The notes under the pieces: model-generated
Told to the model about the DNA's origin: nothing
The model's database searches: none
The model's input: only the letters and a program-made list of their open reading frames with translations
Shown: one piece after another, positions 4,536-42,121 of the stretch
Position numbering within the stretch: the first letter of the stretch is position 1
Layout of the letters: each line of letters begins with the position of its first letter
Origin: a virus
Virus record (IMG/VR): IMGVR_UViG_3300050821_007132
Coordinates: 1-49,744 of that record
Length of the DNA: 49,744 nt
Direction: 5' to 3' (one strand)
Translations under genes and position numbers: made by a program

Positions 4536-5104
4536 CGTTGGTACGGCGGCGGCGATCCGTGATCAACTCTTGGTTCTTCGATCCAGCCGCATAGTCTAAA
4601 TCCGTGCTGGGTTGGGCACCATTTCTGGAAGCTAGAAGTGAAGTCCATTATCTTAGCGGGATCGTTTACCCACGTTGGTTGCGACGTGACCTCGCCCAAT
4701 TCGAGACGATATTCCCAGTGCCCTTGGTACTCATCGCCCCATTGTCCTTTTAGCATGATTGGTCCTTCCGCAGAATCGAAGGCAACCTTGGTACTCATAT
4801 AGCCGTCGTAGTTGCTTTCTGTGCCTTGGCCCGCAACGCACTTAGTGAATGCCTGGGTCACCTTCGCTGGCGGCGTCCCGAAATCAGTCGTCTCGCCGAA
4901 AGTCCAAGTGCCGAACTCGTGGCGCTGATTCTGCTTGATAGACCACTCGCCGGTCAGGCTGATTATGCCTTCATTGCAGGAATACCATTTGGTCAGTGCG
5001 CCCGCCGGTGTGGACCGCCGCGCGATAATCACACAGTTAGTGAAGGCAAACACCGGATGCGAGAACCCCAACACCGATGCTAGGCATAGTATACGTTTGA
5101 TCAT
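4532..5104 (-). CDS. secreted protein with signal peptide, unknown
   Basis: A strong AAGGAG site precedes ATG 5104; a GTG one codon earlier is less likely. The product (about 190 residues) has a Sec signal peptide (MIKRILCLASVLGFSHPVFA) and a mature part with five cysteines and repeated aromatic/Gly beta pattern (GEWSIKQ, GTWTFGE, KGQWGDEYQGHWEYRL). It should be exported to the periplasm or outside. Last gene of the minus-strand operon beginning at 6788; convergent with the plus-strand block. Confidence 0.6.
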   Translation of the reverse strand: MIKRILCLASVLGFSHPVFAFTNCVIIARRSTPAGALTKWYSCNEGIISLTGEWSIKQNQRHEFGTWTFGETTDFGTPPAKVTQAFTKCVAGQGTESNYDGYMSTKVAFDSAEGPIMLKGQWGDEYQGHWEYRLELGEVTSQPTWVNDPAKIMDFTSSFQKWCPTQHGFRLCGWIEEPRVDHGSPPPYQR

Positions 5105-19337: not shown

Positions 19338-19945
19338 GCAACGTGATTCCATTCCCGCGACTCAAGCAGCCCAAGGACTTCGCCGATGCGACCGTTCAGA
19401 TCAACAAGGCATTCGAGATGTTCCGCCAAGCGATAATGAATGCAGGTGGTACGGGCGGCGTGCCGATGGCGGAATTTCTCGCCCTGCAAGCTCAGGTGAA
19501 GAATCTCACCGCGCTCTCCGGCAACGACATCAACAACGGCGGCACCGGCAACCCAGCGCCGACTCCGGCAACGCAGACCGTCACGACAGACGGCACCACC
19601 ATCACCGGCGACGGCGGCTCGTCTCCCATCTCGCTGGTTGTACCAGTCACACTACCCGATGGTGGCACCGGAATCGTTCAGGCAGGTACGCAGCAAATCA
19701 CCACCAACGGCACCCTCATTGGCGCTGGGACGGCGCAGGCGCAACCGGCGCTGACCTTGCCGGGGGTGACGACTAAATCCGCCGTGGCGTGGAGCCTGCC
19801 CAATGTTCCCGATGCTACGTGGCAGACTGGCATTGCCATGATATTCGTATGCACCGCCAACACGGTGACGCCCTATCTTATCAATCCAACAGCAGCGGGC
19901 ATCACGCCTATCGCGCAACTGGTGAATATCAAGGTGATTCTGTGA
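19334..19945 (+). CDS. fibre-like protein
   Basis: TTG start inside the TTGA overlap with the previous stop. The 203-residue product has a helical N-terminus (MSNVIPFPRLKQPKDFADAT), then Gly/Thr-rich repeats typical of phage fibres (TLPDGGTGIVQAG, TQQITTNGTLIG) and a beta-rich end. Likely a tail fibre or fibre-attachment protein. Ends by GTGA overlap with the secreted phosphoesterase gene. Confidence 0.5.
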   Translation: MSNVIPFPRLKQPKDFADATVQINKAFEMFRQAIMNAGGTGGVPMAEFLALQAQVKNLTALSGNDINNGGTGNPAPTPATQTVTTDGTTITGDGGSSPISLVVPVTLPDGGTGIVQAGTQQITTNGTLIGAGTAQAQPALTLPGVTTKSAVAWSLPNVPDATWQTGIAMIFVCTANTVTPYLINPTAAGITPIAQLVNIKVIL

Positions 19946-22029
19946 GAATGGTCCTGCTATTCATCTTGCTCACGCCCGCGTTAGCCAGCGCGCAAGTACT
20001 TTGTCCTCTATGCGATTGCTCCTTCGATGCAATCTCCGGTTCCACCACAGCCTCAACCGGCGGCAACCTCAACACGAGCATAGCGATTGCGGACCCCGGC
20101 GTTCACATCGGAGATTCAGTGTTGTGTCTGGTCGGCTACGACTCGTACCTGCACGGAATTAATGCGATCGATAACACATGGACAAATCTCGGAAATCTGC
20201 AACTGCCTGATGGCTCGGGCGAATCGTTGCTCTTGCAGAACTACCCCGGATCGTATCCGACGGCCAGTTTTCAAAATCTGAGCACTCTGATTGCCGAGAA
20301 CTGGTCGGCCATCTGCGTTGCGAGTTCGTATCGCGCGTCTCTCGATGGCCTCGTGACGAGTCTGGCTAACGCGGCCTCGACCACCGCGACGGCTCCCAAG
20401 GTCGTGATAGACCAAACCCTCACGTCTCTGTTTAACTTCTGCTCCGCGCCGGGGACGATCGCCTTCTCGTCGCCTACTCTCGGATCGCTGGTCGCGCAGC
20501 AACACGCCTTCGGGCCGAGCGTGGCGGTAGCCAATAGCCGCGATGCGATTGTCTCTCCCACGTCCGCGAACCAGATCACGCTCAGCACTTCGGCGGTGTC
20601 GGGCTGCATATCGGCGGCGTTCAAGTGCGGGCCAAATCCGACGCCTACGGCCACTGCCACCGCGACGCCCACGGCGACCGCGACTGGCGCAACCGCCACT
20701 GCGACCGCAACGGCTACACCAACTGCAACCGCAAGCCCTACCGGCTCGATCACGAATATCGTGGTGATCGAAAAGGAAAACCGCAGCTACGATAATTACT
20801 TCGGTACCTTCCCGTGCTCGGGCGGTCCTTGCGGAGTCTCGACGGCGACCCTGAGTACGGGCGCCACCTACGCGCTGACGCGCGGGATGGATACGACCTC
20901 GACGGACTTCGACCACGACTACATTCCATTCATCACCGACATCGACGGCGGCTTGATGGACGGTTTCGATAAGGCTCCGTGGTGTACCTCGACCAGCACG
21001 CCACCCTACGGCTGTCTCATTCAGCAGGTGCAGGCGGACATCCCGAACTACTGGACGTTGGCGACGAACTACGCGCTCGGCGACAATATGTTTCCTGACA
21101 TCATCGGCCCCAGCCAGCCGAATCACTTGGCGATGCTGTTCGCGAGTTCCTTCTTCGACATCAGCAATACGTGGAATAACGGCACGACGCAGAGTTGGGG
21201 CTGCGATGCACCGCTGAAAGCGAGCGACTGCACGGCGGCGAACGTGCCGGGGCCGCAATGCACCGGCGCGGGAACCTGCCCGACCTGTACGGCGACGACT
21301 TCGGCCTACGTTCAACTTCTAGGACAGACGCCGAATACGAAGTACCCATGCTTCACGCAGACTTCTCTTATGGACGAAGCGGCGACCGCCAGCGTCAGTT
21401 TCAAGTGGTACGGCGATATAACGTTCGGCGACACCGGCTATTACTGGACCGCGCCGGATGAGTTGATTCGCTTCACCAACGGGACCGCGAATTGGACGAG
21501 TCACGTCGTGGCATCCACCCAATTCACTACCGATGCCGACGCGGGCACGTTGCCGCAGATTGCGTGGGTAACGCCGGACCTCGCGCATAGCGAGCATCCG
21601 CTGGAAGGTATCTGCACCGGCGAGAACTGGACCGTCAACCTGCTCAATCATCTGTTCGCGGGGCCGCAGGGGGCGCACACCGTCGTCTTTATCGTGTGGG
21701 ACGAAAGCGGCGGCCTTTATGATCACGTAAATCCGCCAGTCATTCAGAGCGTCGGCGCGAATCGGCTATCGGCTGGTCCACGGGTGCCTGTGCTGGTCGT
21801 CTCGCCGTATGCTCGCGCGACGGGCGGGGTCGCTGCCAACGTAAACCATACGCAGGTGCTATTCTCTTCAATCGTGAGGCAGATCGAAAACCAATTCGGA
21901 CTGGCGCGACTCGGTGGTCACGATTCGACCGCGAACGACATGAGCAGTTTTCTCAATCTCAACCAGGCACCGATAACATGGACGCCGCTGACTCAGAGGA
22001 CGGGAGGATTATGCGTTACGTCGCCGTAG
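19942..22029 (+). CDS. secreted two-domain protein with phospholipase C/acid phosphatase-type phosphoesterase
   Basis: GTG 19942 (GTGA overlap) gives 695 residues. A Sec signal peptide MRMVLLFILLTPALASA is followed by a Cys-containing beta-sandwich-like domain (to about 230), a Thr-Ala-Pro linker (about 233-268) and a phosphoesterase domain of the PF04185 type. The latter has VIEKENRSYDNYFG (275-288), QPNHLAML, EHPLEGICTGENW, VWDESGGLYDHVNPP (585-599) and GPRVPVLVVSPYA. That family includes bacterial phospholipase C and AcpA-like acid phosphatases, acting on phospholipid or phosphate esters outside the cytoplasm. An export signal on a gene inside the virion operon is odd: the protein may be secreted by the infected cell or be a virion fibre taken from host genes. 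Confidence 0.75.
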   Translation: MRMVLLFILLTPALASAQVLCPLCDCSFDAISGSTTASTGGNLNTSIAIADPGVHIGDSVLCLVGYDSYLHGINAIDNTWTNLGNLQLPDGSGESLLLQNYPGSYPTASFQNLSTLIAENWSAICVASSYRASLDGLVTSLANAASTTATAPKVVIDQTLTSLFNFCSAPGTIAFSSPTLGSLVAQQHAFGPSVAVANSRDAIVSPTSANQITLSTSAVSGCISAAFKCGPNPTPTATATATPTATATGATATATATATPTATASPTGSITNIVVIEKENRSYDNYFGTFPCSGGPCGVSTATLSTGATYALTRGMDTTSTDFDHDYIPFITDIDGGLMDGFDKAPWCTSTSTPPYGCLIQQVQADIPNYWTLATNYALGDNMFPDIIGPSQPNHLAMLFASSFFDISNTWNNGTTQSWGCDAPLKASDCTAANVPGPQCTGAGTCPTCTATTSAYVQLLGQTPNTKYPCFTQTSLMDEAATASVSFKWYGDITFGDTGYYWTAPDELIRFTNGTANWTSHVVASTQFTTDADAGTLPQIAWVTPDLAHSEHPLEGICTGENWTVNLLNHLFAGPQGAHTVVFIVWDESGGLYDHVNPPVIQSVGANRLSAGPRVPVLVVSPYARATGGVAANVNHTQVLFSSIVRQIENQFGLARLGGHDSTANDMSSFLNLNQAPITWTPLTQRTGGLCVTSP
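19969..19984 (+). repeat. dispersed palindrome, copy in signal peptide
   Basis: CTCACGCCCGCGTTAG, 15 of 16, encoding LTPAL of the signal peptide; the same codons recur at 41248 and 43870. Confidence 0.7.
20638..20745 (+). repeat. Thr-Ala-Pro linker repeat
   Basis: Degenerate (GCN ACN)n DNA encoding the linker of the secreted phosphoesterase. Wobble positions vary, so the protein repeat is kept while DNA identity is partly lost. Confidence 0.8.
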
Positions 22030-22289
22030 TGCTGGCGTTGCTCGCAGCCTGCAACCCCTATCGCGGGAATCCTGACGGCATTCAGGGTGAGGCGGTCTGG
22101 CAGGCGAGGCAAGAGATTTGCGCTGCGGCTCGAACGGGTGCGCCGCTGGTGCCGGATGCCGCGATGGGGATGGCGATATTCGACTACGAGAACAAGCAGT
22201 GGGACGATGACGACTGCGTGATTCGTCCGAAGGCGGGCCAGATAAACAGGCTGCTCAACGTGCGTCCGACAGGGCCGGATTGGTCGTGA
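22011..22289 (+). CDS. small lipoprotein
   Basis: GGGAGG before ATG 22011. Begins MRYVAVVLALLAACNPY with lipobox LAAC at Cys15; 92 residues. The mature part has a few Cys and acidic residues (DYENKQWDDDDCVIR). It overlaps the upstream gene by 19 bases and ends by GTGA overlap. Possible outer-membrane anchor; function unknown. Confidence 0.6.
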   Translation: MRYVAVVLALLAACNPYRGNPDGIQGEAVWQARQEICAAARTGAPLVPDAAMGMAIFDYENKQWDDDDCVIRPKAGQINRLLNVRPTGPDWS

Positions 22290-24268
22290 AACGAATAGCG
22301 ATTATCGCCGTATTGCTCGCACTACTCTTACCGACGAAGGGATGGGCGCAGAGCGGCGTCGATTCCACCAGCATCGTACAGCACAAGTCCTGCCCGAACC
22401 TGACGCCAAGCGGGTCTGTGGCGACATGCGCGTTCACGAGTTCACCGGCAACCGGCAATCTCATCATCGTGGTTGGAGCGACGGGCGGCACGACCATCAC
22501 GCAGACGATCACGAGCAACAACGGGAGTTGCACCTCGCGCGAAGTGCAGACCGGCCAGAACGCAGGGCTGCAAATCGCGGAATGTACTGTTACGGCGAAC
22601 AGCGCCACGACCATCACGGACACGCTGTCGTCGGGCAATCTCGTTACTGCGCTGGAAATCATGGAAGTCCACGACACTGGCGGCGTCATCTCATTTGACG
22701 TGGCAGGCGGCGTGAAGAACGGGTCGCTCTCAGCCAATGCTCCAACCGGCGCGACGGCGGCGACTAATAACGTGGTGGACTTCTGCGTGGCGGCGCTGGC
22801 TTTTGCCAGCACGGTTGCCAAGACTCCGACCGCAGGGCCGGGATTGTTGGCAGCAGCGGTTCCGTCTGCGTGGAACACTATCGACAACAACGCGACCATC
22901 GGACCGGGGATGCTGACGGCGAGCACCGTCACGAGCGCATCAGGATTGGCTGTTCAGTCGGCGTGGTCATGGAGCGGCGCGACGCCGAGCACCGGCGGCA
23001 CGGTCTGCTACAAGGGGCAGGTGCAGCCGACGATTGCGCCGGTGGGGACGCCAGCGGCGACGAATCTCAGTGGTACGAGCACGGTGGTCACTATCGCGAG
23101 CACGGCGGCGGGCGCGTGTAATCGGATTCAGCTATGCGATACCAGCGGAGTCTTTGTGACACCTTCTTGCTCGGGCAATAATTGCACCTGCACCCGAGTT
23201 CTTGGGGCTACCACATGGAACACGACAGGCAGCAAGGCGGTATTTTTGTGTAGTGGATGCACGGGAAATCCCACCTGCACGTTTGGCGTAACTGTCGTCG
23301 GAAATCCTGAAGCCGTTGCGGACGCATATTCTGGCTCCGCTTGTACGGTCGATTGCACGGGGGCTGGCGACCAGACCGGCAGCAGTGCGACCTCGACATC
23401 GAATAGTCTTAGTTCCTGCAATCAGGGAGATGCGCTTCTTTACGATGCGTGTAGTGCTGGCGCGACGGCATCTTCAAATTCGACTCCGCTCGCTACCACG
23501 GTCTCGATCAACGTCGCAGGGACTCCGACAAATCTTCTCGCCTACTACTTCGATACCGCCCCCTCGACTAATACATCCCCCGCGCAGAGCCGCACACAGG
23601 GCAACGTCGCATGGGTATCCGGTGCGGTAGGGCTGGCACCGGCATCAGCGGCGACCGCGACGGCTACAGCGACAGCTACCGCCACTGCTACCGCTACGGC
23701 TACGGCAACAGCCACGGCCACCGCTACCGCAACTGCCACAGCCACAGCTACGGCAACGGCTACCGCGACAGCTACCGCAACAGTGACGGCAACGCCCACG
23801 CCGATCGCTACGCCTACGGCGACCGCTACGGCTACGGGCGGCGCTCCGACCCCTACGGGAGTGTGCACCCCCAATGCGACTATCTCGCTACTGAACCACA
23901 ACAAGAACGTGCTGAATGGAACGGCATCAGCAGTCGTCGGCAAGGGTGCGAACTGGTTTGCATGGGGTATCGACACCAACGCGAGCGACAACATCGTCGA
24001 TGCTTTCAACGCAGGTACGGCGAGCGGTACAACGGCGGCAGTCAATAAAACCATTCGCATCGTGGACGGGAATAACCTCGTTTGCACCGGCACCACCGTG
24101 AGCAGCACGCCCGCCTGCTCAACGCTGCCCTGCGACGTGATCACCGTTCGTGTCTGTAACACGGAAGGCAGCGTAGCGGGATGCACGGAAAGCGCGACGA
24201 CGGCACTGCCTAGCATGTCGGTTTATATTCAGGACGCCAACGGATTCATTGACGACATTATTCCGTGA
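22286..24268 (+). CDS. secreted multidomain adhesin-like protein
   Basis: GTG 22286 (GTGA overlap) gives 660 residues. Signal peptide MKRIAIIAVLLALLLPTKGW then AQ. Two Thr/Ser/Gly-rich beta-sandwich-like domains with paired cysteines (to about 450), one of the longest Thr-Ala linkers in the genome (about 453-525), and a C-terminal domain beginning PTGVCTPNATISLL. No catalytic motif seen. It should be exported; binding to surfaces or polysaccharide is a guess. Confidence 0.6.
   Translation: MKRIAIIAVLLALLLPTKGWAQSGVDSTSIVQHKSCPNLTPSGSVATCAFTSSPATGNLIIVVGATGGTTITQTITSNNGSCTSREVQTGQNAGLQIAECTVTANSATTITDTLSSGNLVTALEIMEVHDTGGVISFDVAGGVKNGSLSANAPTGATAATNNVVDFCVAALAFASTVAKTPTAGPGLLAAAVPSAWNTIDNNATIGPGMLTASTVTSASGLAVQSAWSWSGATPSTGGTVCYKGQVQPTIAPVGTPAATNLSGTSTVVTIASTAAGACNRIQLCDTSGVFVTPSCSGNNCTCTRVLGATTWNTTGSKAVFLCSGCTGNPTCTFGVTVVGNPEAVADAYSGSACTVDCTGAGDQTGSSATSTSNSLSSCNQGDALLYDACSAGATASSNSTPLATTVSINVAGTPTNLLAYYFDTAPSTNTSPAQSRTQGNVAWVSGAVGLAPASAATATATATATATATATATATATATATATATATATATATATATATVTATPTPIATPTATATATGGAPTPTGVCTPNATISLLNHNKNVLNGTASAVVGKGANWFAWGIDTNASDNIVDAFNAGTASGTTAAVNKTIRIVDGNNLVCTGTTVSSTPACSTLPCDVITVRVCNTEGSVAGCTESATTALPSMSVYIQDANGFIDDIIP
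23644..23850 (+). repeat. long Thr-Ala linker repeat
   Basis: About 200 bases of GCN-ACN dipeptide repeat with varied wobble bases inside gene 22286-24268. Similar tracts occur at 20638, 24945, 25726, 41275 and 46615. Confidence 0.8.
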
Positions 24269-30682: not shown

Positions 30683-32620
30683 ATGGGCGGAGCGATTCCA
30701 CCGCCGCCAGCGGGATTCAAACTTGACGTACCGCCCCCTCCCGATGGATACAAAATAGATTCTCCGGGTGACCCCGGTGTTCCGAACATTCCGCCATCTG
30801 CATCGCAGGTTGCTGACAGTGCGACTAAAACCATTGGCAAGATTATCCCTCGAATCGGTACGCAAGTCGGCGGTGCTGAGGCGGGCGCTCTCCTTGGTGC
30901 TCCGTTGGGGCCGCTCGGTTCTGTTGCGGGTGCTGCTATCGGTGGTGGTATTGGGAATGTGGTCGGTAGTAAGTTACCAGAGGCGATTGGCGGCGACCCG
31001 TCTGAATCCACGCTCCACGCTTTCGGATGGGGTGCGATACCAGAGGGCGCGGGACGTGGCATCGCAGGGGCGGTTGAATCGCGAGTAGCCAAGCGCGGCG
31101 CGAACGAAGCCTACGATGCAATAATCGACGCGCTCGATAAGGGCGCGAATCCGATGCCCGCAGAACAAGCAGGCCGCACAGCGGAAGCCCTTGGCCGCAC
31201 AACGCTTGAATCTGCGAAGCCACTCACGGGTGAGGCGCTATCTGACGCGACTAATTCTCTGCGGGACGATATTCGCGGGCCGATCACTGCGATGCGTCGG
31301 CAACTCGGCGAGCCGATTGGCGATGCGTACAAGGCGTTGAAAGAAGATCCGACGCCGCTTGACCCGAAGCAGATTGCCGATATACAGGAAGCCTCTCAGA
31401 ACGTCCGCGAGGACATGATTTCGCCGTATCCAAAGGCGAAGGCAATTCTTCAACGCATCAAGAATCTATCGCCACCGGAAGCGCCGGATTGGATGCAGCC
31501 TGCATATAAGGGCGACCATCCGCCGCGTCCAGTAACGCCCGAAGATTTCGCGGCGGTGCAGAAATATCTCGATGGAGTGAAAAACTACAAGCCGCCGACG
31601 TGGGACGACATTCGAGAACTTCGACAGGCCAATAACCAGATTCTACGCAATGCACAAGGCGGTGACATTCACGCATCGGCAGGACTCCAGCAGGCACTTG
31701 ATGAGCAGTTGATGACTAAACTGCCCGCAGGTATTAGCCGCGACCGCGAACTCTATCGTTCGTTTATGAATCGGTTCCCGTGGCGCGATGCCACTCGCCT
31801 AGATCGTATGGGCACGCCGGGAGAACTCGCTGACTACGCATTCGGTGGAACGCCTGAACGCGCAGCGGAAATAGCACAGGGCGCGAGTCCGCAAGGTAAG
31901 CAGGCTCTCAAAGAAGCATTCACGGATCGCGTTCTTCGCAACGCGAATCCCGATGCGCCGCTTGCGGACCAAGTGAAGTCAGTTCGTGAGGCGATGGCCC
32001 CGCATATCAAAAGTGGGCTGGCTGCGAGTCTGTATGGGGCTAAGAACGCTGACGAATTGCGCAACATCTTTTATCTGCCAGAGCACTTTCAGCAATGGAA
32101 GGCCGCAGTCACCATGTCCGACTTCCACGACGCAGCTATCCAAGAGATGACCGATGCGATTAAGCATCCCAAGACCGCCGATGCACTTGAGAAGGGATGG
32201 AGTCGAGTCGTGCAATCGCTACCGCCAAAGACTCGCGCGATGCTCGAACAACCCACGCTTCCCGGCGCTCAGATGCCCGTTGTGATGGGGACGGAAGAGG
32301 CTCTGACAGAAGGCGCAAAACCAGGAGCATCTAGCATCGGTGGCCGCGTCGCGCGTCGGGCTGAGTTGACGATACCGATGGCGGCGGGTCGCGTAGCCTC
32401 GACAGGCAATCCTCTATTCGCCGCAGGACAGGTCGCAACGATGGCGGGAATCATGGGCACGTCGGCGGGTTATCGCGCGCTCATGGAGAATGGCGGCGCG
32501 AGCATGGTCGGGAAGTTGTACGGGTCGCAGGGTGGCAAGGCTTCAGTGCGCGCGTTGCTCGAAACTCTTGGTGCAATCGGAACGCAGGCCGAACGAAAGG
32601 TTACATCAGACCAGAATTAG
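30683..32620 (+). CDS. large internal virion/ejection-type protein
   Basis: ATG immediately after the previous stop; 645 residues. The Pro-rich start (IPPPPAGFKLDVPPPPDGYK) and glycine-zipper-like segment (GGAEAGALLGAPLGPLGSVA) are typical of phage internal virion proteins that cross membranes; the remainder is helical. It ends convergently, overlapping the minus-strand ATP-grasp gene by 20 bases. Confidence 0.55.
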   Translation: MGGAIPPPPAGFKLDVPPPPDGYKIDSPGDPGVPNIPPSASQVADSATKTIGKIIPRIGTQVGGAEAGALLGAPLGPLGSVAGAAIGGGIGNVVGSKLPEAIGGDPSESTLHAFGWGAIPEGAGRGIAGAVESRVAKRGANEAYDAIIDALDKGANPMPAEQAGRTAEALGRTTLESAKPLTGEALSDATNSLRDDIRGPITAMRRQLGEPIGDAYKALKEDPTPLDPKQIADIQEASQNVREDMISPYPKAKAILQRIKNLSPPEAPDWMQPAYKGDHPPRPVTPEDFAAVQKYLDGVKNYKPPTWDDIRELRQANNQILRNAQGGDIHASAGLQQALDEQLMTKLPAGISRDRELYRSFMNRFPWRDATRLDRMGTPGELADYAFGGTPERAAEIAQGASPQGKQALKEAFTDRVLRNANPDAPLADQVKSVREAMAPHIKSGLAASLYGAKNADELRNIFYLPEHFQQWKAAVTMSDFHDAAIQEMTDAIKHPKTADALEKGWSRVVQSLPPKTRAMLEQPTLPGAQMPVVMGTEEALTEGAKPGASSIGGRVARRAELTIPMAAGRVASTGNPLFAAGQVATMAGIMGTSAGYRALMENGGASMVGKLYGSQGGKASVRALLETLGAIGTQAERKVTSDQN

Positions 32621-33800
32621 TGGCGTCTTCTTCCGCCTTGTCCAACTCGCTCGCGTCGAATACCAACTGATTTGCTTTCACGGTCTCTGCCGCTTCGATG
32701 CACATGGACTTGGCCTCGTCAGCGGTCTTGCCCCAGCCCAGCGCGGAGCCAAATTCCTTGTACTTGGAGTCGTGCGGGATGATCCAGACTTCGCCGTCAC
32801 GTTCGCAATAATTGTGGAAGGCAAACCGCTCCGCCATCTTCTTGGGGAACGTCACTTTGAGCCAGTTATCAGCAACCCAATCTGATTTCAGGACTATTTC
32901 GCAGAAGTAGCGGGCGTCGCCATAGTCGGGATTTTCGCCTTTCAGCACGACATCGGAGAAGTTCTGACATGCCGCCATCATCACGCCGCCAGGAGGCGAC
33001 GGCACGCGGCACGTGGCATCGGTAACGAAGATTCCGTGCTTGTTCTGGCGCATCTCGACGGAAAAGAAATTGTTGTAATCGACTGAATCGAAGTATCGAC
33101 CTAGCGCGCCAACGGCGGGCGCGTACTGTTCTGGCAATTCGGCTAGCCATCCGAAGTAGGCAGCATCCTTGCGCTCGATGCCGAGAATCGACGGCTCCGC
33201 GAATTTGCCATGAAGAACGAATGTGTCGATGCCGATTTCGACCGCATCTTCAATCGGGTCTTCGATGATAAACAGAATCGAGTCCGCTAGTTCCCCTAAC
33301 TTGTTCCGTAAGAAATTATATTCGGTAAGGAAATCCTCTCCCGACCTTGTTTCTAAATCGCCACGGAACACGCTGACCTTGACGAATTTGTCGGGGTCTT
33401 TCTCGATGAGCTTACGCGCCGCTTCAATGCCTTGAACCTGAACGGTGTTGATTACGTCGAGGTCGTTGGCAGAGAGAAACTCTTTCAGCTTCCAGCGGTC
33501 GGTTTCGAGGTCGTTGCCAGCGCCGCTGCCGAAAGTCGGTATGTCTAACGCCCGCGAGAGCCTGTCTAATCCTTCGAGGTAGAGGTCAGGGACGATGACG
33601 TGCGACGCCTTGCCGTCGAGCATAAACGCGATGGGGTCGTCTATGCGCTCGACGTTCTTGAGGCCGGTTCCGGGTGCCAGTTCGCGACTCTGCGGGAAGG
33701 CATTTACCCACGTCGAAAAATACGCAACGGGCTGGTCCTGCGCCATGCGCGCCGCAAGAGAAACGTATAATCCTGAATCGACTATTAACGGCTTCGGCAC
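32601..33800 (-). CDS. ATP-grasp-like ligase (moron)
   Basis: GTG start, 399 residues. The fold pattern resembles ATP-grasp enzymes such as PurD: an N-terminal substrate-type domain (SHVIVPDLYLEGLDRLSRAL), FGSGAGNDLETDRWKLKEFL (approach to the ATP-grasp domain), DKFVKVSVFRGD (the lysine strand that binds ATP), a central beta-sheet, and FFSVEMRQNKHGIFVTDATC (acidic metal-binding strand). ATP-grasp enzymes join a carboxylate to an amine or thiol using ATP. Substrate unknown. It is the only minus-strand gene within the structural block and has its own promoter. Confidence 0.6.
   Translation of the reverse strand: MPKPLIVDSGLYVSLAARMAQDQPVAYFSTWVNAFPQSRELAPGTGLKNVERIDDPIAFMLDGKASHVIVPDLYLEGLDRLSRALDIPTFGSGAGNDLETDRWKLKEFLSANDLDVINTVQVQGIEAARKLIEKDPDKFVKVSVFRGDLETRSGEDFLTEYNFLRNKLGELADSILFIIEDPIEDAVEIGIDTFVLHGKFAEPSILGIERKDAAYFGWLAELPEQYAPAVGALGRYFDSVDYNNFFSVEMRQNKHGIFVTDATCRVPSPPGGVMMAACQNFSDVVLKGENPDYGDARYFCEIVLKSDWVADNWLKVTFPKKMAERFAFHNYCERDGEVWIIPHDSKYKEFGSALGWGKTADEAKSMCIEAAETVKANQLVFDASELDKAEEDATNSGLM
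33545..33560 (+). repeat. dispersed palindrome, copy in ATP-grasp gene
   Basis: CTAACGCCCGCGAGAG, identical to the copy at 17036-17051; encodes LSRALD on the minus strand. Confidence 0.65.
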
Positions 33801-33806
33801 GCCGCC

Positions 33807-33835
33807 ACTTTACATCGTGCGGTCGGTAGCGTAAA
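33807..33835 (-). promoter_or_regulatory. promoter of the ATP-grasp gene
   Basis: Minus strand TTTACG (33835-33830), 17-base spacer, TAAAGT (33812-33807), six bases to GTG 33800. Each box matches 4 of 6, and the spacing equals that of the other leaderless promoters. Confidence 0.5.
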
Positions 33836-33877
33836 CCATTCTCTAACGACATTCTTAACGAACACGGAGAAATCATT

Positions 33878-34063
33878 ATGTCTCGTGGAAGAAATGAGGG
33901 ACCGGAGCAGGAGCGCATTAAGGCCGACGAAATCGCGAGCACGCGCAACGCGGGTAAGCGTGGTTCCGGCGCTGTGAACTTCGAGAAGAAGGGATTCGGC
34001 TCCGAAAAAGGAATGCAGACCAATCCAAAGAGCGGAATGCCAGCCGACAAGCACGGTATCTAA
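33878..34063 (+). CDS. 61-residue basic protein
   Basis: CGGAG before ATG. Lys/Gly-rich (NAGKRGSGAVNFEKKGFGSE) and ending in ADKHGI. Its KKG-G-G style end recalls the gene at 41817 (KKGYGG...GKKGI). May bind DNA in the head; inference only. Confidence 0.5.
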   Translation: MSRGRNEGPEQERIKADEIASTRNAGKRGSGAVNFEKKGFGSEKGMQTNPKSGMPADKHGI

Positions 34064-34438
34064 ATGGCGGTCGGGATCACCGTCGATTTCAGTTCAAATC
34101 CGTGGGTAGTGACCTACAACGGTAGTGTCACGCCGGGGCCGACACAATTCACGCTGCCCGCGCAGATTTGGCCGCTAGCGGGATACGCCGGAGCGACGTC
34201 GCCATTCTTGTGCAAGAGGCTAGTCGCTATTGGCAACGCTACGGCTCAAGGCGCGGAAATCACGCTCGAGGATAATGTCCCCAGCCCGAATGGTCCCAAC
34301 GTATTCGCCGACTTTCTAGCGACGGGCGCGGATTACGAGCCTCCGCAGGAATGGAAGCGCAACAAGGACGAAGGCGGTCCATTCGGCTGTACGGTGTCGG
34401 TATTCGCATCGGGCTGGACGCTCTACATCCATTTCTAG
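34064..34438 (+). CDS. putative structural protein, beta-rich
   Basis: ATG directly after the previous stop; 124 residues, beta pattern throughout (ITVDFSSNPWVVTYNG, CTVSVFASGWTLYIHF). Before the portal gene; may be a decoration or connector protein. No family recognised. Confidence 0.45.
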   Translation: MAVGITVDFSSNPWVVTYNGSVTPGPTQFTLPAQIWPLAGYAGATSPFLCKRLVAIGNATAQGAEITLEDNVPSPNGPNVFADFLATGADYEPPQEWKRNKDEGGPFGCTVSVFASGWTLYIHF

Positions 34439-34447
34439 GGGATCGCC

Positions 34448-34822
34448 GTGCCGGAACTACGCGCGACCTTACTTTTGGAAGTTGATGGTGTGGCACTTCC
34501 AGACTTCCCGATAATTCGACGGTACGTTGTTGCCGAATTGTCGGGCCTGAACACCATCTCTCAGCCTGCGGATAATAACACCACCTCGTATCATCCATTG
34601 CCGCAAATCACGATGCCGTCGCTCGGCGTCTTCTTGCTAACGATGGATCAGGCTCTCAATCTCAAACTGAATCTGAATACTCCCTTGCCGATGAATGCGA
34701 ATGGTCTTGTTCTGATACTCGGTACTAGCATCATTCAGGGAACACCATCGCAATCGGTCGAAGTGAACAATCCAGCTGCCGCAACAACGGCGAATGTCGG
34801 CATACTGGCTGGCGGAACCTGA
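34448..34822 (+). CDS. putative structural protein, unknown
   Basis: GTG start, 124 residues, beta-rich with an N-terminal ELRATLLLEVDGVALPDFPI. Ends by TGATG overlap with the portal gene. Function unknown. Confidence 0.45.
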   Translation: MPELRATLLLEVDGVALPDFPIIRRYVVAELSGLNTISQPADNNTTSYHPLPQITMPSLGVFLLTMDQALNLKLNLNTPLPMNANGLVLILGTSIIQGTPSQSVEVNNPAAATTANVGILAGGT

Positions 34823-36699
34823 TGCGCGAAATCTCGATACCTGGTGGCACCGGTAAGCCATTCGTCTTCAAGTCCGGTCAGCGCCAGATGCTCAAGCAGT
34901 GTCTGCAACTAGAGCACACACGCGCCTACAACTCCCGCTTCGGCGTAGACAACACGATGAAGAACGCCATCCGGCAGTATCAGGGACAGGCTCCTGAAAA
35001 GCTCGGCTGGGTGCCGTTCGAGAATGCGCCTACTATTGAAATAACGAGCGGGGCGACGCAGGCCGATCAGATTCTTTCTCAAGCAGAAGATTTAATCTTT
35101 CAGACCAATCCCATTCTCACCGTTCAGGCCCGTAAGGATGAGTTTGATGATGTGCAAGAGGACATCCAAGAACTCGTAAAGTGGGGTACGGCGAACAGTG
35201 CCAATGGTGGTCCGTGGCGCTACGAACCGGGCATGAAAGAAGGGCTAATCGACGGTGTGCAACTCGGCACGATGATTGGCTACATCCCATTCGTAAAGAG
35301 CGAACGCGTCACCGATATTCGCCGCGTGATTGATTTTGGCCCGCAGATTATGTCTATCGCACCTGAGCATTTCATCCTGCCTGCCAATGCCACGAAGGAC
35401 ATCCAGCGTGCGAAGTTTTGCACAATGGTTCAGTACATGGACAAGGATGAACTTCGGTGGCGTGCGCAAGCGGGCGAATGGATGATGGACGACGCCGCCT
35501 CCGCCGATGGAGAATCCAATATCCGCAAGGACCGACTGCGTGCGGCGGGCGTGATGGAATCCACGCCAGACGGCTCCACGCGAGTCAAAGTCGGCTACAC
35601 GTTTATCTACTTCGATTTCCACGACGGGATGGGCCAGCGCGACCTTGAAGTCGTCTGGAACATGACTTCCGGCAACATTCTGAAATGCCGGTATAATCGC
35701 TATAACTGCCGTCCCTTTGTTCTTGAGTGCTATCAGGACCGCGCGCATTTGCCGTGGGGGATCGGCGTCATGGAGATGGACGCACCCTATGGACGGCTGG
35801 CGACCGAGATTTGGAATAACCACGTCTGGAACATGATGATCTGCAATACAAAGATGTATCAGGGACCAGCGGAGGTGATGAACGAAAGCCCTGAAATCTT
35901 CCCCGGCAAGAAGTTCGATAACGACGCCGGAGAAATCAAAGCCATCGACATGGGCGAGGTGAACAATACCGGCATTCAAGCATTCCAGCTTGTAACGGGC
36001 ATGTCGTCGGCTCGTATCGGTACGAATCAGCTTACGGCTCCGCTGCGCGGCGGGAATCGCACCCCCGGCATTTCGATGTTGTCGATGTTGCAGCAGGCGA
36101 ATCGTAGATTTACGCATCCCTTCAACAACATGCGCAACTTCGGGGCGCAGTTGGCGATTCAGTGTCTCTACCGGATTCAGGAGCAAGTGAAAGGCGGTCC
36201 CGAAAAGGCCGCGACGGTAAAAGCGCTGAAGCAAATCATGGGGGACGAGAAGGCCGACAGAATCATCGCGCTCATGCGTCGCACCGACATCGAATTGACA
36301 GATGCGCTTGACGTGCAACTCACGGCGGCGAGCGTATCCGTGAATAGAGAGGCGGATCGGCAGAACATGGTAATGCTGATGACGCAGGTGATGCCGCTCT
36401 ACTGGAACGGCAAGAAGGAACTGGCGCAATTCATAGCGCAGCCGCCGTTTCCCGGAGCCAAAGAGACTGCGGAGCAAGCGGATAGGCTACTCGAAAAGCT
36501 CAAGAACAAGGTGCTGGAAACCTTCGATGAGATAGCCGATGGTCGGACGATGACAATTGACTTGTCTGCGGTAGCGCAGATGGCGGAACAGATGGATCAG
36601 CAATTCGCGCAACTCACACAGGGCCAGCCGCAGGGACAGCCACAGCCAGCACCGCAAATGCCACCACAGCCATCTCCTAACGGGACGCCGCTGCAATGA
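34822..36699 (+). CDS. portal protein
   Basis: A 625-residue product. Size, order and segments fit portal proteins of short-tailed phages: an N-terminal region QMLKQCLQLEHTRAYNSRFG, a clip/stem part PWGIGVMEMDAPYGRLATEI then WNNHVWNMMI, a conserved-type GVQLGTMIGYIP, and a Gln/Pro-rich flexible C-terminus. The portal forms the 12-subunit ring through which DNA enters and leaves and binds terminase. Followed at once by scaffold-like and capsid genes, as is usual. Confidence 0.75.
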   Translation: MREISIPGGTGKPFVFKSGQRQMLKQCLQLEHTRAYNSRFGVDNTMKNAIRQYQGQAPEKLGWVPFENAPTIEITSGATQADQILSQAEDLIFQTNPILTVQARKDEFDDVQEDIQELVKWGTANSANGGPWRYEPGMKEGLIDGVQLGTMIGYIPFVKSERVTDIRRVIDFGPQIMSIAPEHFILPANATKDIQRAKFCTMVQYMDKDELRWRAQAGEWMMDDAASADGESNIRKDRLRAAGVMESTPDGSTRVKVGYTFIYFDFHDGMGQRDLEVVWNMTSGNILKCRYNRYNCRPFVLECYQDRAHLPWGIGVMEMDAPYGRLATEIWNNHVWNMMICNTKMYQGPAEVMNESPEIFPGKKFDNDAGEIKAIDMGEVNNTGIQAFQLVTGMSSARIGTNQLTAPLRGGNRTPGISMLSMLQQANRRFTHPFNNMRNFGAQLAIQCLYRIQEQVKGGPEKAATVKALKQIMGDEKADRIIALMRRTDIELTDALDVQLTAASVSVNREADRQNMVMLMTQVMPLYWNGKKELAQFIAQPPFPGAKETAEQADRLLEKLKNKVLETFDEIADGRTMTIDLSAVAQMAEQMDQQFAQLTQGQPQGQPQPAPQMPPQPSPNGTPLQ

Positions 36700-41197: not shown

Positions 41198-41817
41198 GTC
41201 TAATGCGAAGTCTTAAATACGTTCTCGTTGCACTAGGCTTGCTGTGCCTCACGCCCGCGTTATCCTTTGCGCAGACCGCGACGGCCACAGCGACTGCCAC
41301 CGCCACGGCGGTAACGGCTACGCCCGCTTCGACGCCCTCGCCTACGGGTACGACGTTCTCAGGCGTGACTCATTTCGGATACTTGGCAACCGTCACGAAG
41401 TCCAATGGACTGCTTGGCGGCTACATGGTGCAACTGAAGGCGACTGCGGCCCTGCTCTATGGGCAGGTCGTCATACCCGATGCGTCGAATAATAATTCGG
41501 TTGTCGTCGCGGCCAGCGGAGCCACAAACCCGATTGGCGTGGTAGTCGGCTGTGTCGGAGCCGTGGCCGGAAGCACGCAACCAGGAGCCAAGTTCGGCTG
41601 TAATCCTGCGGCGGCACAGACCGCGATGGTTCTGATGGACGGTGTTGCGCAAGTCGTATGCGATAGGGCCATGAGTCCGGGGCAGGTCGTTATGACCAGC
41701 ACGCTCGTTAACGGAATGGTAGGCCCCTACGTCGCGGGCACCGTGGATGAGCAAATCGGCGTCTTGCTGAGTTCGTGCGCCGTCAACGGAACGGCGAATA
41801 TGCTGGTCTATAAATAA
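41194..41817 (+). CDS. signal-peptide protein with decoration-like domain
   Basis: GTG start in GTGA overlap; 207 residues. Signal peptide ending LCLTPALSFAQ, a Thr-Ala-Pro linker (DNA 41275-41351), then a domain like phage decoration proteins of the DUF2190 kind (ATNPIGVVVGCVG, VLMDGVAQVVCDRAMSPGQV, DEQIGVLLSS). A decoration-type domain behind an export signal is unusual: the protein may leave the cell instead of joining capsids in the cytoplasm. Confidence 0.55.
   Translation: MSLMRSLKYVLVALGLLCLTPALSFAQTATATATATATAVTATPASTPSPTGTTFSGVTHFGYLATVTKSNGLLGGYMVQLKATAALLYGQVVIPDASNNNSVVVAASGATNPIGVVVGCVGAVAGSTQPGAKFGCNPAAAQTAMVLMDGVAQVVCDRAMSPGQVVMTSTLVNGMVGPYVAGTVDEQIGVLLSSCAVNGTANMLVYK
41248..41263 (+). 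repeat. dispersed palindrome, copy in signal peptide
   Basis: CTCACGCCCGCGTTAT, 14 of 16; encodes LTPAL of the signal peptide. Confidence 0.65.
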
Positions 41818-41978
41818 TGGCTCAGGAAACTAGAGCGCAGAAGGATTTCGTCGCCCGCAAGAATCGCGAGCGGGACCGCGAGGAAACCGATCCGCCGCAC
41901 GCCCGCATCCCGAAGAAGGGATACGGCGGGATGGACACCAAGAACAAGGACACGGGCGCTGGCAAGAAGGGCATATGA
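41817..41978 (+). CDS. 53-residue basic protein
   Basis: TAATG overlap. MAQETRAQKDFVARKNRERD start, KKGYGGMDTKNK middle and GKKGI end. Its Lys/Gly end resembles gene 33878-34063. Possibly a head-internal DNA-binding protein. Confidence 0.5.
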   Translation: MAQETRAQKDFVARKNRERDREETDPPHARIPKKGYGGMDTKNKDTGAGKKGI

Positions 41979-42121
41979 AAAAGTACGCCAAGATGAAGAA
42001 GAAAATCTCGATGGGCAACATGAGCGGCGGCAAGGACACCGGCAGTCCCTTCGGGAAGAAGACCAAAGCGGCGTATTCCACCAACAAGCTTATCCCTACT
42101 AAGAAGAAGAAAAAGAAGTAG
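41975..42121 (+). CDS. 48-residue polylysine-rich protein
   Basis: ATGA overlap. MKKYAKMKKKISMGNMSGGK at the start and an unbroken lysine run at the end. Extreme positive charge suggests nucleic-acid binding or charge neutralisation of packaged DNA. Confidence 0.5.
   Translation: MKKYAKMKKKISMGNMSGGKDTGSPFGKKTKAAYSTNKLIPTKKKKKK

Follow-up and report, generated by a model that had tools for sequence, protein, structure and literature searches.

A predicted ATP-grasp ligase of PurD fold carried by uncultured viruses

A gene on the minus strand of the IMG/VR virus record IMGVR_UViG_3300050821_007132 (positions 32601–33800, GTG start, 399 residues) encodes a protein predicted to contain a complete ATP-grasp fold with the whole three-domain architecture of PurD, the glycinamide ribonucleotide (GAR) synthetase. 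The window analysed here is this single record, 49,744 bases in length. The protein appears to retain the catalytic positions of ATP-grasp enzymes and to have lost the substrate pocket of PurD. We give about an even chance to its being a catalytically competent ATP-grasp carboxylate–amine ligase, one member of a large virus-borne family, that would join a small-molecule amine late in infection.

Fold and active site of the ligase

The kinship to PurD is apparent only at the level of profiles and structure. The window protein alone found no useful match in Pfam, PHROGs or NCBIfam (none in Pfam at E ≤ 1 and none in NCBIfam at E ≤ 10), only weak L16 matches in the PDB by phmmer, and nothing useful in a plasmid search. 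Searches of 50,697 phage records by tblastn gave no match with this protein or with its relatives as queries. Motif and profile scans of IMG/VR recovered relatives that share approximately 26–57% identity with the window protein. One of 11 family members matches GARS_C at 0.18. A profile of 16 ligase sequences matches PDB entry 2yw2 with an E-value of 4.6e-10. In a profile–profile comparison, the family matches nine PurDs at 98.1% (E = 1.1e-13, 377 columns). The PurD set consists of the E. coli protein and eight sequences hand-picked from 40 plasmid rows; a ninth fetched record, L105, was left unaligned.

An AlphaFold model built on the 16 sequences has a predicted local distance difference test (pLDDT) score of 93.4 and a predicted template modelling (pTM) score of 0.90. 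An earlier model from five sequences, four of them near-identical, was poor (pLDDT 44.7) and was not used. In a Foldseek search with the model, ranks 1–15 are GAR synthetases (best E = 2.1e-20). In a VIA structural comparison, the top 13 rows are GAR synthetases with Z scores of 25.7–30.3, followed by PurT at 23.1. The model superimposes on 2yw2 with a Z score of 30.2 and a root mean square deviation of 3.2 over 366 aligned residues. The best match in a viral structure library has a query-normalised template modelling score of 0.47. A reading of the window from its letters alone (the sequence-only reading) had called the gene ATP-grasp and proposed a structure-based search against PurD. The call is upheld: the model contains the full fold, nucleotide- and metal-site residues are present, and GAR synthetases, with Z up to 30, head all structural matches.

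The active site has been extensively rewritten. The nine PurDs share 49 invariant columns, of which only five are kept in at least 12 of the 16 viral members, namely E99, K141, E188, K211, and R265; 30 of the 49 are matched in none or one member. Six residues, E188, K211, E249, D261, T263, and R265, are invariant in all 16 viral ligases. Codons 261–270 (32991–33020, minus strand) spell the family signature DATCRVPSPP, in which D261 and R265 align with E286 and R290 of PurD and T263 aligns with N288. The codon of E249 lies at 33054–33056 (minus strand), and PurD has Gly273 at this position. K141 (33378–33380, minus strand) aligns with K145 of PurD and is a lysine in 14 of 16 members; L042 and L008 have a lysine two columns beyond. 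We take E249 to be the metal-ligand position of ATP-grasp enzymes, by comparison with E276 of biotin carboxylase, and the spacing of E249 and D261 is presumably that of the two acidic metal ligands in that enzyme. By alignment, the catalytic positions K141, E188, E249, D261, and R265 thus appear to be retained.

The fold and the full-length similarity would also suit a genuine GAR synthetase, which as an auxiliary metabolic gene would boost host purine synthesis. We rejected this candidate, and consider it extremely unlikely, because the residues, loops, and signature specific to PurD are lost. The GGREH loop is found in none of 15 viral members aligned. The stretch G224–P235 of PurD, which has six invariant positions and includes the glycine-rich GPNTGGMG loop, falls in a gap in the viral family, with loss of the loop residues G224, N226, G229, M230, and G231. 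In place of the PurD signature R[LF]GDPEx[EQIM] (PS00184, as quoted in PMC3261824), the window protein has RVPSPPG; of 16 members, 15 have proline at position 267 and 14 have serine at position 268, so that serine takes the place of the signature aspartate. The lack of any Pfam match to the window protein also speaks against a GAR synthetase. On like evidence, a missing signature aspartate and a divergent N-terminal loop, the authors of PMC3261824 denied this function to two archaeal PurD-like proteins. Judged by its residues, the viral ligase is not a GAR synthetase and has lost the PurD substrate pocket.

The viral family and its partner genes

A scan of IMG/VR with the subfamily of locus L117 identified 158 stretches encoding relatives. 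Locus comparisons use 80 of them, two of which lack a ligase open reading frame (ORF) in the greedy ORF set, leaving 78 loci. The family is large and so far seen only in uncultured viruses. Two scans of GTDB genome contigs with narrow motif patterns matched 16 and 3 stretches, none of them related; cellular relatives may still exist. Both superfamily and fold are known. The libraries searched have no label for the family, for its spread among viruses or for its partners, and no description of the family was found in the titles and abstract beginnings of a partial literature collection. Current annotation would thus miss a family of at least 158 matching stretches, which Pfam, PHROGs, and NCBIfam leave unlabelled and which tblastn does not find among phage records.

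Distant copies of the ligase are often accompanied by small genes. Partners, defined as lying within 600 nt, were counted in the 67 of 78 loci that remain after near-identical ligases are dropped. They occur in 33 of the 67: family A in 25, family B in 15, and both in 7. In these loci both families are always on the strand of the ligase, and mostly touch or overlap the ligase or each other. Six further loci carry N-terminal fusions. By eye, the fused ligases of L130, L142, and L188 contain HAD-like segments. The ligases of L055, L056, L138, L191, and L198 bear at the N terminus a segment with the short motif '...LHSE/R...', reminiscent of small phage proteins. When partner states are mapped onto a tree that includes 81 viral rows, at least 17 changes are required for family A and at least 7 for family B; the tree is a quick one with many weak branches, includes only three PurDs, and leaves out L117, L002, L003, and L005. 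The association of ligase and partner has therefore been made or lost many times.

Family A proteins are approximately 125 residues long, with D20, H47, E51, D69, G85, P91, Y92, and H96 invariant in 20 sequences, and have the look of a putative metal-binding enzyme. Family B proteins (approximately 120 residues) resemble S-adenosylmethionine (AdoMet) decarboxylase: 10 of 12 records match AdoMet_dc (PF02675) at E ≤ 1, with a best value of 8.8e-9, and the family keeps a serine and a cysteine at the spacing of S63 and C83. The family B profile reaches the AdoMet decarboxylase 2iii in the PDB at E = 1.6, below unrelated weak matches. In addition, a pyruvoyl-dependent arginine decarboxylase (PvlArgDC) adjoins the ligase in L183, the only such case in 46 records.

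In ATP-grasp chemistry, a carboxylate is phosphorylated with ATP and the acyl group is then passed to an amine. In late infection, the viral ligase would accordingly turn a carboxylate into an acyl phosphate and transfer the acyl group to a small-molecule amine. This amine may be of the decarboxylated-amino-acid kind, a polyamine or agmatine, as the AdoMet-decarboxylase-like partner and the PvlArgDC of L183 suggest. A small-molecule amide is favoured by the closed three-domain PurD architecture, by the nearest enzymes, which act on small molecules, and by the amine-forming partners. As a more tentative extension, which we hold to be rather unlikely, the PurD-derived ligase, the AdoMet-decarboxylase-derived protein, and the HExxE-like metal-binding protein might constitute a virus-borne mini-pathway making a polyamine-like amide late in infection. 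Its parts would recombine among unrelated phages, and the lone ligase of the window would perform the last step with an amine from the host. The amide might neutralise packaged DNA, alter the envelope or counter host defence. The PurD kinship with its rewritten pocket and the recurrent decarboxylase-like neighbour make the chemistry directly testable, and a new amine conjugate as product would be a previously unrecognised piece of phage metabolism.

Several observations weigh against a small-molecule amine ligase. The window has neither a family A nor a family B partner, and 28 of the 67 loci have no partner of either family within 600 nt and no fusion. In the clade of the window, family A occurs only in L052/L028 (a single contig), where it converges on the ligase, and an AdoMet_dc search for polyamine genes in this clade found none. 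The window ligase lacking partners, its amine would have to come from the host, or the role differs. Family A has no PDB match. Only 2 of 12 family B records pass the curated AdoMet_dc cut-off, and all 12 sequences have aspartate in place of the essential H68, which makes the activity of family B uncertain; it may not be an active decarboxylase. Finally, the location of the ligase gene in the late region fits a role linked to the virion equally well.

The gene, its slot and its neighbours

The segment 32601–33800 is a real gene, since homologues share its start residue, its codon usage matches the rest of the phage, and the ratio of nonsynonymous to synonymous substitution rates (dN/dS) is low among near relatives (0.027–0.043 in six pairs). 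An in-frame stop directly precedes the GTG, and the codon score is 0.207 bits per codon, compared with 0.04–0.26 in 14 training genes. The sequence-only reading had extended the gene to 33835; the gene stands, and the last approximately 35 bp are upstream DNA. It had also taken the gene as the only one on the minus strand from 13.6 to 49.6 kb, which codon scores support within the greedy ORF set, where the other five minus-strand ORFs score from −0.288 to −0.005. A minus-strand ORF outside this set (22255–22932) scores +0.093, and a better-scoring plus-strand ORF overlies the same stretch.

The ligase gene occupies a slot between an ejection-like gene and an SU10-type portal gene (34822–36699, plus strand, 625 residues). 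The portal was used to test the fixation of the slot, and its scan yielded 15 loci on 13 contigs. All nine contigs that reach the slot carry the ligase in it, and the other four end short of it. In eight of the nine, as in the window, the ligase runs against the head genes. In L117 it is co-directional with them, and the end of the ejection-like gene, on the same strand, overlaps it. The L117 ligase is of another subfamily and groups with L095 (98/96); a clade joining it to the window group is rejected by the approximately unbiased test (p = 0.002). The portals of L117 and of L045, the latter bearing a window-type ligase, share 70.7% identity. We read this as an in-place replacement of the ligase by another subfamily, which points to retention of the slot for ligase activity. 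Over three pairs, dN/dS is 0.026–0.041 for the ligase and 0.027–0.042 for the portal. Constraint on the ligase thus matches that on the portal, and purifying selection is strong. In IMGVR_UViG_3300046517_000933 and 3300047321_000419 (L003–L006), the ligase region lies near both ends, approximately 49.3 and 49.7 kb apart. The two copies of a 61-residue protein in 3300047321_000419 differ by one residue, and this record may join two strains.

The sequence-only reading had regarded the gene as a moron with its own leaderless-type promoter. A moron gained recently, transcribed independently, and serving lysogeny would explain the opposite strand and a promoter-like sequence visible by eye, TTTACG-17-TAAAGT (33807–33835, minus strand), whose TAAAGT ends 6 bp from the GTG. 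However, a sigma-70 scan of 32400–34200 found no site where 0.9 were expected, and the promoter is left unproven. Among six relatives compared by eye, L001, L003, and L028 read TACTGT instead, L037 and L023 have nothing similar, and L064 is ambiguous. One terminator-like site was found, on the opposite strand (34065–34085). The gene is fixed throughout the portal clade, with phage-like codon usage and a dN/dS as low as that of the portal, and in most relatives it is co-directional with its surroundings. The nearest upstream ORF of at least 150 residues is on the ligase strand in 67 of the 74 loci having one, and both neighbours oppose the ligase in 2 of 78. The reverse strand is thus an exception peculiar to the clade of the window. 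A recent moron was rejected on the fixed slot, codon usage, and dN/dS, and we consider it very unlikely.

The convergent neighbour (30683–32620, plus strand, 645 residues) is a fast-evolving, probable ejection (internal virion) protein gene that overlaps the ligase gene tail to tail by 20 bp. The overlap confirms the convergence described in the sequence-only reading; the ejection label is a probable one, drawn from weak matches. The product has only weak Gly-zipper and phage matches, and its N terminus matches (33% over 93 residues, E = 0.001) the third gene of a run in L055 that opens with a phrog_598 'DNA ejection' gene. The ejection-like proteins at L003:7037–9316 and L054:6359–7999 are 57% identical over 554 residues, yet that of L003 differs strongly from its counterpart in the portal-related L001; together this indicates mosaic exchange beside the ligase.

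Modification of virion or host peptides, as conceived in the sequence-only reading, is possible and constitutes the main rival to a small-molecule ligase, although another role is now better supported. Such a peptide or protein ligase would attach an amino acid or the like to a protein of the virion or the host, in the manner of RimK-like ATP-grasps. It would agree with the setting among structural genes in the window clade, with the position after the ejection gene cassette in L055, and with that between a large ORF and a tailspike in L057; the 1786-residue ORF of L057 has no PDB match. ATP-grasps of other families have been proposed for phage modification of host proteins (PMC7824862, PMC4431377). 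On the other hand, the nearest folds, PurD, PurT, PurK, and biotin carboxylase, act on small molecules, and no conserved target gene is evident: the ejection-like protein is exchanged between L001 and L003 (dN 0.90) and the ligase hardly changes, and the 61-residue gene next to the ligase does not accompany it beyond the clade. We rate protein modification as a lesser, though real, possibility.

The constant position next to the ejection-like and portal genes in all nine contigs, together with the same-strand overlap in L117, could also indicate a packaged or assembly component in which catalysis is secondary or absent. This is improbable, as the ATP-grasp catalytic positions are invariant across members that share approximately 26–57% identity with the window protein, and the gene has small non-structural partners elsewhere. 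Distant copies lie beside portal, terminase, tailspike, and lysis genes, and also beside GNAT, HNH, ADP-ribosyltransferase, and Zeta-toxin-like genes, so the location of the ligase is not always structural. Among 49 of the 50 non-redundant upstream ORFs of at least 480 residues, each of the portal, terminase, and tail families has few matches, at most four per family.

On its divergent side, the ligase adjoins the 61-residue gene (33878–34063, plus strand), which is conserved in the portal clade, including L117, and absent from the other ligase-bearing loci examined. It was therefore rejected as a cognate substrate. A second proposed substrate peptide, at 41817, spans 53 codons to the first stop (41817–41978, with a KKGYGG..GAGKKGI end) and has no relative in the loci examined; the longer stretch 41817–42121 contains stops and scores as non-coding. 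The suggestion of small substrate peptides nearby thus finds no support. Two genes of 124 residues each (34064–34822, plus strand) separate the slot from the portal; the second (34448–34822) is present in all eight close loci tested and the first in three.

In a subgroup of relatives, a 24-bp imperfect palindrome (GTTTGAT..ATATCAAAC) of operator-like look lies between the ligase and the 61-residue gene (L001:6538–6561, L003:5543–5566, L005:3622–3645, and L028:4586–4609). It is confined to this subgroup (27 of 120 loci, many being overlapping copies of one contig). In L045, between positions 4863 and 5992, an extra short ORF seems by eye to separate the ligase from the divergent intergenic region. 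Elsewhere in the late region of the window, a plus-strand gene of 746 residues (19789–22029) matches Phosphoesterase (PF04185, E = 5.2e-55), an unusual cargo among structural genes.

Comparison with known systems

ORF28 (291 residues) of the LUZ24-like phage UFV-P2 is annotated as ATP-grasp in PMC3890496 and in this respect resembles the predicted window ligase. It differs in that an amidoligase and a glutamine amidotransferase accompany it in the early region; amidoligase and class II glutamine amidotransferase (GATase) Pfam families have no match among 30 window proteins scanned.

Phage homologues of AdoMet decarboxylase (AdoMetDC/SpeD) that decarboxylate ornithine or arginine are known (PMC10407285, PMC9992855), and the term ATP-grasp does not occur in the main text of either paper. 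Family B is like these proteins in matching AdoMet_dc and in keeping the serine and cysteine, and differs in having aspartate for H68 and in its coupling to a PurD-like ligase.

The archaeal PurD-like proteins of PMC3261824 fail the same GAR synthetase tests as the viral family. PurT, PurK, biotin carboxylase, and other ATP-grasp carboxylate–amine ligases share the ATP-grasp fold (Z 20–23), with a structural similarity to the viral ligase clearly below that of PurD. PurD itself (EC 6.3.4.13) has the same whole three-domain fold, and Glu99, Lys141, Glu188, Lys211, and Arg265 of the viral ligase align with its invariant residues. The viral ligase differs from PurD in lacking the GGREH and GPNTGGMG loops and the RFGDPE signature, in having D261 and T263 in place of E286 and N288, and in having the invariant E249 in place of Gly273.

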